Assembly (NCBI GenBank): GCA_022797935.1
Contig: JAAWLO010000018.1
Coordinates: forward strand, 1-33,265
Direction of reading: 5' to 3'
Source of the DNA: Oscillibacter sp.
Lineage (GTDB): Bacteria; Bacillota; Clostridia; Oscillospirales; Oscillospiraceae
Length of the DNA stretch: 33,265 bases
Shown here: positions 29,805 through 33,265 of the stretch, piece by piece
Layout: the number at the start of each line of letters is the position of its first letter
How positions within the stretch are numbered: the stretch's first letter is position 1
The notes under the pieces: model-generated
Databases searched by the model: none
What the model was told of the DNA's origin: nothing
The model's input: only the letters and a program-made list of their open reading frames with translations
Position numbers and translations under genes: made by a program

Positions 29805-29841
29805 CCTGTAGTAATTATCCGAGGGAGCATAGAGCACCTAT

Positions 29842-29916
29842 CTTGCATTTTCCAATATTGGAAAAACCCACATTGGATTATCCGACATTGTAAAAACTTA
29901 CGTTGGAAAATCCAAC
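29842..29916 (+). repeat. Iteron-like array of five 15-bp units
   Basis: Units begin at 29842, 29857, 29872, 29887 and 29902 with exact 15-bp spacing. The core is ATTGG or ATTGT, then A/T-rich, then often TCC or CCC, ending in AC; for example ATTGGATTATCCGAC and GTTGGAAAATCCAAC. The first unit is the most divergent. A palindrome TTTTCCAATATTGGAAAA lies across the first junction. An AT-rich tract follows, as at iteron-type replication origins. Confidence 0.6.
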
Positions 29917-30060
29917 GCAATTAAATAAAGATATAAATAACTAAAGAAATACCAAATACGAATTTAATCAAATACCCATTCCCTTCCTATCCTCTCCCTA
30001 ATCCCTCTCCTTTGAGGCAGGGCAAAGCGGCGGAACCGCCGGAATGGAAAAGAATGGAAC
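29917..30060. other. AT-rich tract followed by a pyrimidine-rich tract
   Basis: Bases 29917-29975 are strongly A/T-rich. Bases 29978-30013 are almost pure pyrimidine on the plus strand. No gene is seen. The layout after the 15-bp units suggests a DNA unwinding region, by analogy only. Confidence 0.35.
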
Positions 30061-30497: not shown

Positions 30498-30848
30498 ATG
30501 AAACTTCTATACGGGTATGTTTTAGTTAACGGGGAAATCGTTGCGCATGAGGAGAAGGCAGATGTTGTCCGCAGTATATTTGCATCCTAACTCGCTGGAG
30601 CCAGTTTGGGAAAAATTGTGGATATGCTTCATGCGAAAGACATCCCTTCCCCATCTGGTAATCCAAAATGGGGCAGAGCGGCGGTGGACAAACTTTTATC
30701 TAATGCGAAATATATTCCCATTATCGGCATGGAGACCTATATGGATGCTCAATTTGCACGTGAACGCCGATGCAATGTGGATTATGACAAGGCTGGATAC
30801 CCCAGAAAGACGACCAGATACCAATCTCCACCTCTCGAACTAAATTGA
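30498..30848 (+). pseudogene. Serine-recombinase-like fragment with in-frame TAA
   Basis: The frame reads MKLLYGYVLVNGEIVAHEEKADVVRSIFAS, then TAA at 30588-30590. It continues LAGASLGKIVDMLHAKDIPSPSGNPKWGRAAVDKLLSNAKYIPIIGMETYMDAQFARERRCNVDYDKAGYPRKT to TGA at 30846-30848. This is the recombinase (pfam07508-like) part of large serine recombinases; the catalytic resolvase domain is missing. Short proteins of this kind occur beside integrases in Firmicutes mobile elements. The TAA most likely replaced a Tyr codon (TAT or TAC), a single-base change. A ribosome binding site (AAAGTGAGG) precedes the ATG. It marks the region as mobile and decaying. Confidence 0.8.
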
Positions 30849-30906
30849 GACTATTCAAATCTCACTTTTTCTGTTATGCTGAAAGAAAAAGGGGAGAAAT
30901 GGTACT

Positions 30907-31502
30907 ATGACAGAGGAAGAAATCAGCAACCTATACATACGCATTGCATTCCAATATGAATCTGCAATTGGTCAGCTTCTCGACAAAAGATAATAGACCA
31001 GGATTTGGTAGACAGGCACAGGAAGGCTTTTTACGACTCGTTAGATGAAGAAAAACTGCGGATATCTCAAAAGATTAGAAACTATAAGGAAATTATACGC
31101 CGCTATATGCAAGGTATGATTTGTGAGAATATGGTGTCATTGACAGAATTGGCGATGCAATACTCAGAGGACTCCCCTGGATATGCCATTCAAAGCTGGA
31201 TGCAGAGCCGCAATACCTTGGAGTTCCTCCGTCAATGGGAAAATGACATGAATGGAGAATTTGATGATAGTGCCTGTGAAGAGCGGATTCACCAGGCGCA
31301 TACAACATCCCTGACAGTTACGCCATCTTTATGGATCAGAAGAACTCGTGCCATTGGGATGCGCGTGAAACAGGGTAAAGGCGGAGGCGTGAGTGCTTAT
31401 CCTGAGATTGCGGCAGACTTCCATTTATGGCTTGATCCGGCAGAAAGGTTAGCTTTAATTAGGATGATACGGGAGAAGCAAATTTACAAGAGCACAATAT
31501 AA
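30907..31502 (+). pseudogene. KilA-N domain protein, frameshifted
   Basis: From ATG 30907, preceded by GGGGAG, the frame reads MTEEEISNLYIRIAFQYESAIGQLLDK and stops at TAA 30991. A shift by one base in the AAAA run at 30985-30988 continues smoothly as KIIDQDLVDRHRKAFYDSLDEEK and on to 31502, so one A appears to have been lost. The C-terminal part (YMQGMICENMVSLTELAMQYSEDSPGYAIQSWMQSRNTLEFLRQWE ... RAIGMRVKQGKGGGVSAYPEIAADFHLWL) matches the KilA-N DNA-binding domain found in phage and mobile-element proteins. Intact length would be about 198 residues. A start at TTG 31005 could still give a KilA-N-only product. Confidence 0.7.
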
Positions 31503-31504
31503 TA

Positions 31505-31533
31505 TTGCACGCAGAAATACATACATGTATGTT
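31505..31533 (+). promoter_or_regulatory. Promoter with overlapping palindromic operator for the AbiTii pair
   Basis: TTGCAC, 17-nt spacer, TATGTT, with transcription predicted from about 31541. A perfect 14-bp palindrome, ACATACATGTATGT at 31519-31532, covers the spacer end and the -10 box. A dimeric DNA-binding protein there would block transcription; the predicted winged-helix protein encoded next is the natural candidate. Confidence 0.5.
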
Positions 31534-31586
31534 CGATAGAAAACAAGGTTAAAAAAGGCCTATTAAAAATATGGGGTGAAACGCAA

Positions 31587-32093
31587 GTGGAGTTTGTTAA
31601 GCTTCCTACTAATTCGAAAAAACTTCTTGATGAAATCGTGTGTGCAGAAAATCCAACTCAACTTTTGAGCAATCGCTTTGATGGGGCATCAGGCAGAGAA
31701 GATGAAGAACTACGTAGCCTTATTAAGGAATTGTGCCAAGAGGGATATATTAGCATCCCGATGTGGGCTAATAATAGGCCCTATCATGTTATTGTAAATA
31801 ATTCTGCGCGAACATACGACGAAAGGCTTAAAGAGTATGAACGATCCATAGGGCAGCAACCTTATGCTGTACTTAATCAAAGTGTGAGCATTGGAAACGG
31901 GAATAAGATCATCCACTCTTCTATTTCTGGAAATATTGAACAAATTCCCGAAAAAACACATAGTGACGCAAAAGGATCTTTCTATACAAAGCATCCTATT
32001 ATCTGCGCCTTTCTGATTTCTTTTGTAGCAGGACTTATACTTCTCTTTTCGTTTTGGGAAAAAATTATTACATATGTAGAGGGCATGGTTTGA
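31587..32093 (+). CDS. Predicted winged-helix/single-membrane-helix partner of the AbiTii protein
   Basis: This 168-residue protein has three parts. Residues about 8-80 look like a winged helix (KKLLDEIVCAENPTQLLSNRFDG, then EELRSLIKELCQEGYISIPMWANNRPYHVIVNNSARTYDER), a domain I have seen in front of varied uncharacterised bacterial proteins. Residues 99-115 are a short motif, QSVSIGNGNKIIHSSISG in context. Residues about 136-156 are one membrane helix close to the C terminus. GTG 31587 is the start, with GGGGTG upstream; ATG 31571 is out of frame. Its TGA shares a base with the next ATG (TGATG), so both proteins are translationally coupled. I infer a sensor, tether or regulator role; function is unproven. 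Confidence 0.75.
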   Translation: MEFVKLPTNSKKLLDEIVCAENPTQLLSNRFDGASGREDEELRSLIKELCQEGYISIPMWANNRPYHVIVNNSARTYDERLKEYERSIGQQPYAVLNQSVSIGNGNKIIHSSISGNIEQIPEKTHSDAKGSFYTKHPIICAFLISFVAGLILLFSFWEKIITYVEGMV

Positions 32094-32797
32094 TGGCAAA
32101 GAGCAAAATTATTAAAGATTTGGCAAATGGTGAAGTTGATACTACGACCGCTTTGAAACGCGCTAAAGTTTTAATTTCAGAGCTACAAGATAATGAACTG
32201 CTAAATTGGATTAACCAAGAAATCTCAGGATATCCAATGGAAGCTACTCTTCCTGGTTACAGAATTGTTGAAGGAAATCTATTAGGTTCATATTTAAAGG
32301 GCTCAATGGCTGCGCATATGAAATATTCCAATGTTTCCTTGCCATTGGGTAAGATGCCAGATGATCTTAGAAGCAAATTGTTGACGTTGCAATTTCGAGA
32401 AGGTATAGAGGCGTTAAAGTCGTTATTGGAAAGCGCAAAAACGGATAAGGACGGACAAATTGGCAAAATAATTCCGGCAGATTTTTTTGGTGTCATCTCT
32501 ACATATAATAAAGATCCATATATGATAATTACCTCGGCAAAAGTTGTAATTGGGCCTCAACATATTCAGAACATTTTTTCTGTTATCGAAAACAAATTGC
32601 TGGATATCTTACTTCTACTGGAAAAAGAATTTGGAAGCCTTGATGAACTGGACATAGATGTTTCATGTAAGACAACGGAAGAGTTACAAAATATATCTAA
32701 AGAAATGCATGTCCTCGTCTATAATGATTTTAGCGTAAAAGTAGGCGATAACAACAAGATAAAAGAGTCTAGTATTACTTCATCTAAAAAGACATGA
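32093..32797 (+). CDS. AbiTii-domain protein, predicted abortive-infection component
   Basis: This 234-residue soluble protein begins with the AbiTii signature, IIKDLANGEVDTTTALKRAKVLISELQDNELLNWINQEISGYP (about 6-48). The domain is named after the second protein of the two-gene phage-resistance system AbiT of Lactococcus lactis. A mostly helical middle follows, and a C-terminal tail SVKVGDNNKIKESSITS (about 214-230) echoes a motif in the preceding protein. ATG 32093 shares one base with the upstream stop; an in-frame GTG further upstream lies inside the membrane-protein gene and is rejected. AT-rich codon use differs from the GC-rich core genes, consistent with transfer. The mode of action of AbiTii is not known to me. 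Confidence 0.85.
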   Translation: MAKSKIIKDLANGEVDTTTALKRAKVLISELQDNELLNWINQEISGYPMEATLPGYRIVEGNLLGSYLKGSMAAHMKYSNVSLPLGKMPDDLRSKLLTLQFREGIEALKSLLESAKTDKDGQIGKIIPADFFGVISTYNKDPYMIITSAKVVIGPQHIQNIFSVIENKLLDILLLLEKEFGSLDELDIDVSCKTTEELQNISKEMHVLVYNDFSVKVGDNNKIKESSITSSKKT

Positions 32798-32842
32798 GCT
32801 TTTGAGCACCTAATGAAAAAATAATTTTTGTTAATTCCAAAA

Positions 32843-32890
32843 ACGGCCAAATCCATTGCAGCACAATGGATTTGGCCGTGCATCTTTTTC
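32843..32890 (+). terminator. Intrinsic terminator of the AbiTii operon
   Basis: A perfect 16-bp stem (32843-32858 with 32864-32879), a 5-nt loop, then GCATCTTTTTC. It is the last unit before recombinase homology resumes. Confidence 0.85.
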
Positions 32891-32899
32891 CCCCACACA

Positions 32900-33265
32900 A
32901 GGAACATCATGTATGAATTTTACGCTAGAGATACCAGCCGCAAGATTAAGTCCGTATCCAAAGCAAAAGGCATGAGCGGCAAGCACCTGACCGGCACGGT
33001 CATTTACGGTTACTTGTGAGACGAAAAGCGGGAACATTGGATTGTGGACGAAGAAGCCGCTGACGTAGTGCGCCGGATATTCGCTATGACTATGGACGGA
33101 TATGGCCCCTACCAGATTGCGAACCGGCTGTCACAGGAAAAGATTGAGATACCGTCCCTGCACCTGTCCCATTACGGGGAGGGCGTGAATCAATCCAAGA
33201 CGTTTAAAGACCCTTATGGCTGGGGTTCTTCCACTATCGTCAATATCCTGAAAAAGCGTGAGTAT
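32900..33265 (+). pseudogene. Large serine recombinase fragment, 5'-truncated, in-frame TGA, runs off the window
   Basis: Homology starts abruptly at 32900 (RNIMYEFYARDTSRKIKSVSKAKGMSGKHLTGTVIYGYL). It meets TGA at 33017-33019 and continues in the same frame (DEKREHWIVDEEAADVVRRIFAMTMDGYGPYQIANRLSQEKIEIPS ... GWGSSTIVNILKKREY) to the window end. This is the middle of a TnpX/TndX-type large serine recombinase. The catalytic N-terminal resolvase domain is absent upstream; the AbiTii terminator lies where it should be. The remnant therefore suggests that the cassette replaced or interrupted the gene's 5' part. The 3' end is not visible. Confidence 0.82.

Follow-up and report, generated by a model that had tools for sequence, protein, structure and literature searches.

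The AbiTii gene near the end of this contig overlaps a gene of another kind, which raises the question of what this neighbor is and how the two proteins might act together. The window, that is, the whole stretch of DNA analyzed here, is the entire contig C81 of 33,265 nucleotides, ending at position 33265, and the draft genome that it belongs to contains one AbiTii according to a search with PF18864. Computational analysis established both genes of the unit and a short tag that the two proteins share, which is conserved and is linked to the presence of a membrane partner; it also showed that pairs of AbiTi-like and AbiTii proteins have a parallel tag.

The two-gene unit and its surroundings

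The two-gene unit put forward in the original prediction is real, both of its open reading frames being intact, and its genes are as tightly coupled as had been described, sharing one base in TGATG (Table 1). A promoter, a palindrome and a terminator had been claimed as further parts of the unit. The palindrome is present, as is a hairpin with a T-rich tail, but the promoter did not hold up: a consensus scan of positions 30800-33265 gave no plus-strand site from 31272 up to gene 1, and its total of six promoter-like sites is the same as the mean of 6.2 after shuffling. The terminator count of 1 is not above chance, given 2.1 in shuffled sequences; the stem is nonetheless long and perfect.

The low GC content noted in the original prediction was recovered (0.37-0.42 over the final three 1-kb steps, versus 0.49-0.64 earlier). 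Recombinase (PF07508) remnants were likewise found on both sides of the unit, the left one with the reservation that it scores slightly under the curated cut-off (20.4 versus 21.1 bits). The KilA-N match of the flanking gene (E 1.6e-5) reached 25.1 bits against a cut-off of 23.8, and the gene had no PHROGs family at 1e-5. No defence island is visible in the window, where only this gene and the recombinase remnants accompany the unit. By eye, several near-repeats of TTGGAAAA/ATCC-type words were seen ahead of the island, at 29840-29920 of the window.

Table 1. Features of the two-gene unit and its flanks (positions in the window).
Feature	Position	Strand	Basis or remark
Left recombinase remnant, PF07508, slightly under cut-off	30606..30848	+	Pfam
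Flanking KilA-N domain gene, outside the proposed system	31005..31502	+	Pfam
Perfect 14-bp palindrome ACATACATGTATGT, possible operator, upstream of gene 1	31519..31532	.	Sequence
GGGGTGA, likely ribosome-binding site, 7 bases ahead of the gene 1 GTG start	31573..31579	+	By eye
Gene 1, effector candidate	31587..32093	+	168 aa, stop codon included
Winged-helix-like domain, residues 1-90 of gene 1	31587..31856	+	AlphaFold, Foldseek
Shared motif in gene 1 (SVSIGNGNKIIHSSISGNIE)	31881..31940	+	Sequence; low-confidence model region
Predicted membrane helix core (IICAFLISFVAGLILLFSF)	31998..32054	+	Kyte-Doolittle; model helix 137-167
TGATG stop/start overlap, translational coupling	32091..32095	+	Sequence
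Gene 2, AbiTii protein, proposed sensor/nucleator	32093..32797	+	234 aa, stop codon included
AbiTii domain PF18864, residues 5-188 of gene 2	32105..32656	+	Pfam
Shared motif, gene 2 C-terminus (SVKVGDNNKIKESSITSSKK)	32732..32791	+	Sequence; pLDDT <50 region
Perfect 16-pair hairpin, then T-rich tail GCATCTTTTT, likely terminator, 3' of gene 2	32843..32879	+	
Right recombinase piece, PF07508; stop in frame directly ahead; reaches contig end	33020..33265	+	

The AbiTii domain named for gene 2 is well supported, with a PF18864 match at E 3.6e-26 (93 bits, curated cut-off 27.6) and a PADLOC AbiTii match at 7.5e-27. The structural model of this protein is confident through residue 213, and its last 21 residues (214-234) have a pLDDT below 50; compared with solved structures, no similar fold stands out.

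For gene 1, searches returned no significant Pfam, NCBIfam or PADLOC family, the PADLOC search being empty at E 1. Its proposed architecture, in which a winged helix is combined with a short motif and a single membrane helix, was nevertheless reproduced as a prediction by AlphaFold and Kyte-Doolittle analysis. Residues 1-90 were modeled at pLDDT 83-96 by blocks of ten, and winged-helix regulators predominated among the best 50 of 582 Foldseek matches (maximum probability 0.95, best E 0.053). The pLDDT drops below 50 for residues 93-102 and 105-130, so the motif falls in a low-confidence stretch. What follows is modeled as a single long C-terminal helix (137-167), with a Kyte-Doolittle 19-mer maximum of 2.77 at 138-156, and Pfam gave no Bell/HeLo-type match. 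Basic residues lie directly ahead of this helix, suggesting that the tag and the winged helix face the cytosol.

A tag common to AbiTii and its partner

The original prediction had overlooked that the gene 1 motif SVSIGNGNKIIHSSI recurs as the C-terminus of gene 2, SVKVGDNNKIKESSI. In an alignment of gene 1 with 19 of its 57 homologs, I102, G103 and N106 are invariant in 20/20 proteins. In gene 2, aligned with 23 of the best 120 of 475 homologs, G218 and N221 are invariant in all 24 proteins, and each is kept in at least 90% of a wider set of 60. A profile made from the effector tag only was searched against 1835 six-frame ORFs from 73 loci, a redundant collection, and at E <0.1 it retrieved membrane effectors (41 rows), AbiTii C-termini (36 rows) and nothing else. 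The best unrelated ORF had an E of 0.91, and six tagged AbiTii rows reached only 0.23 to 2.0, about the level of that ORF. The AbiTii tail matched its partner better than all 1000 of its own shuffles did in 27 of 31 pairs, and was equalled one to four times in the other four; these 31 comprise 25 with the same tag type as the window, the L052 pair, and five others selected because they matched. The hydrophobic residues of the tags recur with a period near 6 (I-G-D-x-N-K-I...), most plainly in L052 (IGDKNAIGDNA).

The phi-x-phi-G-x-x-N pattern of the tag bears what we take to be a resemblance to RHIM and BASS3. Identity with the RHIM/PP/BASS3 motif was considered and rejected: the core of that motif, G-(I,V)-Q-(I,V)-G according to the available text of PMC7885112, occurs in full in one of 52 tags, and its Q in four of the 52. 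A search of the PDB with the motif profile gave no RHIM or HET-s structure at E 10. Its six matches, which include beta-helix hexapeptide proteins (GlmU, eIF2B-gamma), have E-values of 1.5 to 2 and are at chance level.

The tags of a pair also resemble one another more than they resemble those of other pairs (scores of 51.65 within versus 37.70 between pairs, 26 pairs; 0 of 20000 permutations). Inside clades, the same permutation test gave 27 of 20000 for the 10 Clostridia pairs and 1 of 20000 for the 14 Bacilli-type pairs. With AbiTii-body distance held constant, a partial Mantel test on 25 pairs related the tag distances to each other (r 0.29, p 0.0013); the membrane tail, used as a control, gave r -0.04 and p 0.67. 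The relation was weaker when permuted only within clades (p 0.053), and the effector tag still tracked the AbiTii body given the receptor tag (r 0.30, p 0.0012), which indicates that shared ancestry is part of the tag signal. At the level of single positions, the tag Asn is kept on both sides in 24/25 pairs, with Ala in both partners of L006; in L013, Val and Ala take the place of that Asn. A Gly after the last hydrophobic residue is found on both sides in 14/14 Bacilli-type pairs (seven of them GH/GH, one GK/GK) and on neither side in 10/10 Clostridia pairs. The cognate partner ranked first, alone or in a tie, in only 9 of 26 pairs, and for the AbiTii tail of the window, 23 of 47 non-cognate neighbors equal or exceed the score of the cognate partner.

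At L052:5775-6528, a tag-helix protein is accompanied by a 160-aa protein that is not an AbiTii, both carrying a tag variant of the form IG(D/N)xNAIGDNAxV. The 160-aa protein is possibly a second receptor family.

Partners of AbiTii in other genomes

The pairing of the two families was expected to recur elsewhere, and it does. A profile scan of genome contigs with the gene 1 alignment yielded 22 loci, and AbiTii is adjacent in 18/18 of those with a tag-helix protein, a count in which L009 and L010 hold the same pair, the AbiTii of L009 is cut by the contig end, and the gene 1 reading of L013 is interrupted. Three of the remaining four loci encode a winged helix with a TIR-type domain, and L022 did not confirm. 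All five viral contigs with the partner likewise have AbiTii next to it (L034 carrying the same pair as L017), and additional loci beyond these sets show further pairs. At L013 (4974-5457), the AbiTii beside the interrupted gene 1 reading is open.

In 11 of the 18 loci, the partner is minimal, consisting of the tag and the helix only (ORFs of 63-93 aa, ten of which were aligned); the winged helix is absent from these proteins. Such reduction of gene 1 to the motif and membrane helix is seen in Bacilli and some Clostridia, where the gene still adjoins or overlaps AbiTii. The effector comes first in Clostridia and Eggerthellaceae, and AbiTii comes first in Bacilli.

Three PF18864 surveys (9 of 341, 6 of 299 and 9 of 299 genomes; 25 rows, or 24 places after one duplicate was dropped) linked the tag to the membrane partner. 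Tagged AbiTii had such a partner in 7/8 places and untagged AbiTii in 0/16, the partner of the latter being sought usually within about 1.5 kb on each side, and in four cases also in a 12-kb view. Leaving out the window, two search centers and a near-duplicate, the counts are 3/4 versus 0/16 (Fisher p 0.0035); three of the 16 are under the curated cut-off, and dropping these as well gives 0/13 (p 0.0059). The one tagged place that lacks a partner is L030/L053, whose AbiTii is broken into two ORFs.

Several neighboring arrangements were noted in these collections. In two of the three viral contigs examined, which are prophage-like, the pair directly follows an endolysin gene (L033:4140-6204, L036:4361-6204). 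The position after the endolysin is a usual site of prophage cargo. A degenerate tag-helix protein lies beside an IS240-type transposase at L046/L051:5923-6123, with no AbiTii in 12 kb. Short untagged AbiTii are followed in three loci by related-looking proteins of 192-197 aa (L026:2099-2680, L028:2081-2674, L061:3120-3698) with a hydrophobic stretch at the start and only sub-cut-off Pfam matches; those of L026 and L061 had no PADLOC family. A TIR protein overlaps an AbiTii-like ORF on a Lysinibacillus plasmid (L062:1019-2379), and on two Lactococcus plasmids (L059, L060) a TIR gene is divergent from AbiTii.

The suggestion that gene 1 stands in for AbiTi with a different design holds: it fails to match the AbiTi model, yet one relative, P0055, swaps in an AbiTi module. 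This protein has a winged helix like that of gene 1 (56% identical across half of gene 1), followed by an AbiTi module (E 7.6e-26) where gene 1 has the motif and membrane helix. Five relatives of gene 1 that keep the winged helix but end differently were scanned: AbiTi is clear in P0055 and P0054 (7.9e-9), marginal in P0044 (0.0075) and absent from P0048 and P0053. Because AbiTi thus occurs behind a gene 1-type winged helix, it seems that the AbiTi module and the tag-helix half of gene 1 can replace one another. The same type of winged helix is found ahead of TIR-type domains in L007:5001-6455, L008:5001-6455 (almost identical to L007) and L012:3065-3823, with an SpbK-like match in L007 and a CAP12/PDC-S35-like match in L012; no AbiTii was recognized in these three loci.

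Other tags occur in pairs of types 2 and 3, which were selected because they matched. In L074, L075 and L076, the AbiTii neighbor ends in a PADLOC AbiTi module (E 1.3e-43, 9.2e-36 and 5.2e-42), and in L074 and L075 this neighbor and AbiTii have a QQ-type tag in common; in L075 it reads SQIQQGTVNSCQ in the neighbor and SQVQQGTTDSVQ in AbiTii, the tail of which is hit by the AbiTi model over model positions 2-27 (E 7.9e-4). The AbiTii tail of L057/L076 is a shorter, degenerate version of the QQ type. The near-identical pairs of viral contigs L097 and L098 have a 114-aa neighbor whose best PADLOC match is PDC-M14B (1.8e-10 and 9.2e-12), AbiTi being weaker (6.2e-4 and 0.0029) though covering nearly the whole length; these pairs, too, share a QQ-type tag, and in L097 the neighbor carries NSQVQQDAQHSSQ and AbiTii ends in NSQLQQSTEGSGQ. 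An AbiTi-like C-terminus is also found on long AbiTii proteins themselves (L080, E 3.6e-11; L090, 3.2e-13; weaker in L081, L091 and L095), and was undetected in the long AbiTii of L024, L059, L060 and L092. A Synechococcus plasmid (L094:1852-3193) encodes an AbiTii and a neighbor with a third, unlike tag, VGAVQxGxxNxAxVxQ. None of 47 other neighbors reaches the score of 68 that this pair has; no membrane helix is clear in the partner (maximum 0.91).

Proposed mechanism and relation to known systems

The presence of one tag in both AbiTii and a small membrane protein suggests that AbiTii may switch on the latter by tag-to-tag assembly. We therefore propose, as a reading that we hold to be moderately likely, that the unit is a variant of AbiT in which AbiTii nucleates a homotypic, probably amyloid-like assembly, activating a membrane effector that stands in for AbiTi. 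AbiTii would act in the cytosol as a sensor or adaptor, its disordered tag at the C-terminus becoming exposed or concentrated once infection is sensed. This tag would nucleate cross-beta assembly with the like tag of gene 1, clustering the single membrane helix of the latter, so that the membrane would be breached or depolarized and the cell stopped before phage release. The motif and helix half of gene 1 would occupy the place of AbiTi, with the winged helix as an optional extra domain. The direction of signaling, the amyloid nature of the assembly, the membrane damage and the phage trigger are inferred. According to the parts of these sources that were available, short tags common to neighboring genes and disordered before assembly are a mark of amyloid signaling, as in RHIM, HET-s and BASS (PMC7889193, PMC8086366, PMC12133306).

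Published observations bear on the division of labor within the pair. In the available text of PMC3985639, AbiTi of C. catus GD7 halted the growth of E. coli and the cognate AbiTii showed no antitoxicity, and in the same host neither protein of the lactococcal pair had a toxic effect. AbiTii has been found fused ahead of HEPN domains (PMC3710099, in part). The consulted portion of PMC10286901 traces phage escape from AbiT to the major capsid protein or to two early genes and calls the mechanism of AbiT unknown. The C. catus toxicity, the HEPN fusions and the escape data lead us to favor AbiTii as a sensor or platform and the partner as a putative executioner, with the tags joining both. Points against the proposed reading are the nontoxic lactococcal AbiTi, the missing RHIM core, the poor discrimination of cognate partners by the tail of the window, the tagged AbiTii of L030/L053 without a partner, the tag-helix protein of L046/L051 without AbiTii, and the L094 partner in which a membrane helix is not clear.

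A more static role for the tags, which we regard as unlikely, is that they make up a single rung, or a few, in an ordinary beta-solenoid or beta-zipper and stably tether AbiTii to the membrane protein, with neither amyloid nor propagation. The near-6-residue hydrophobic period, the beta-helices among the weak PDB matches and the overlap of gene 1 with gene 2, frequent among complex subunits, would all suit such docking. It fits less well with at least three unlike tag types on one AbiTii scaffold, as in amyloid-signaling families, with the location of the tags in low-confidence model regions, and with a minimal effector that is hardly more than a tag and a helix. The roles could also be reversed, AbiTii being the effector and gene 1 a membrane-bound sensor or brake, for example one whose winged helix senses phage DNA and whose tag releases AbiTii. 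The modeled winged helix could bind nucleic acid, and AbiTii has a highly conserved glutamate of unknown chemistry (PMC3710099, in part); however, the position of AbiTii ahead of HEPN domains (in the same source) and of AbiTi is that of a sensor, minimal effectors lack the winged helix, and AbiTi is toxic in the one relative reported in the accessible part of PMC3985639, so that we judge this reversal improbable.

Least likely, and in our view very improbable, is a toxin-antitoxin pair in which AbiTii neutralizes a toxic membrane protein through the tags. Two overlapping genes, one of them for a small membrane protein, and the toxic C. catus AbiTi might be read in this way, but the corresponding AbiTii had no antitoxicity (both from the available text of PMC3985639) and AbiTii-AbiTi fusions in a single chain occur (L080, L090). 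A broader form of the preferred reading, AbiTii-nucleated assembly, is that AbiT systems at large are NLR-free amyloid signalosomes, in which AbiTii serves as a receptor platform and seeds, through the tag at its C-terminus, the cognate effectors, among them AbiTi and membrane-helix proteins, unlike tag types having evolved for insulation and the window representing a new type of tag and effector. We advance this generalization tentatively, our judgment being nearly balanced and inclining a little towards doubt.

In a limited literature search, mostly without subscription papers, no report of a tag common to AbiTii and its partner was found. A review asks, in the text available, whether bacteria have signaling amyloids in NLR-independent pathways (PMC7889193). 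A tag that AbiTii and its partner share, and that differs by subfamily, makes both this question and the mechanism of AbiT directly testable, and the minimal effector, a tag and one helix in about 65 residues, would let a membrane executioner be studied in a very simple form.

Among known systems, the PADLOC candidate PDC-M14B matches, with its C-terminal ~100 positions, the QQ-tag modules of L080, L090, L097 and L098, and is the best match for the latter two, ahead of AbiTi; it matches neither gene of the window. With BASS, the NLR-associated motifs with Bell-domain effectors, the unit has in common a short motif in neighboring genes, one of which encodes a membrane-helix effector (available text of PMC7889193 and PMC8086366). 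Unlike BASS, it has no NLR; its receptor is AbiTii, with the motif at the C-terminus, and its effector carries the motif N-terminally or centrally. The arrangement in BASS is the opposite, with the motif N-terminal in the NLR and C-terminal in the effector. The tags described here occur in Clostridia, Bacilli and Eggerthellaceae, and BASS mainly in filamentous bacteria.

The closest relation is to AbiT of Lactococcus lactis and its relatives, a comparison made via family models and other loci. The AbiTii domain and two adjacent genes are common to both, and the TGATG overlap provides the adjacent, coupled partner of abiTii that an AbiT pair has. An AbiTii tail and a partner with the same kind of tag are found here and in AbiTi-like pairs, and P0055 has an AbiTi module behind the same kind of winged helix. 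The unit differs in that its partner has one strong membrane helix, not the helical module of AbiTi, that its tag is GDxNKIxxS instead of the QQ type, and that a winged helix is added. Since gene 1 has no AbiTi-model match, we class the unit as a variant and not as AbiTi/AbiTii sensu stricto; judged by its sequence, it is a variant of AbiT.
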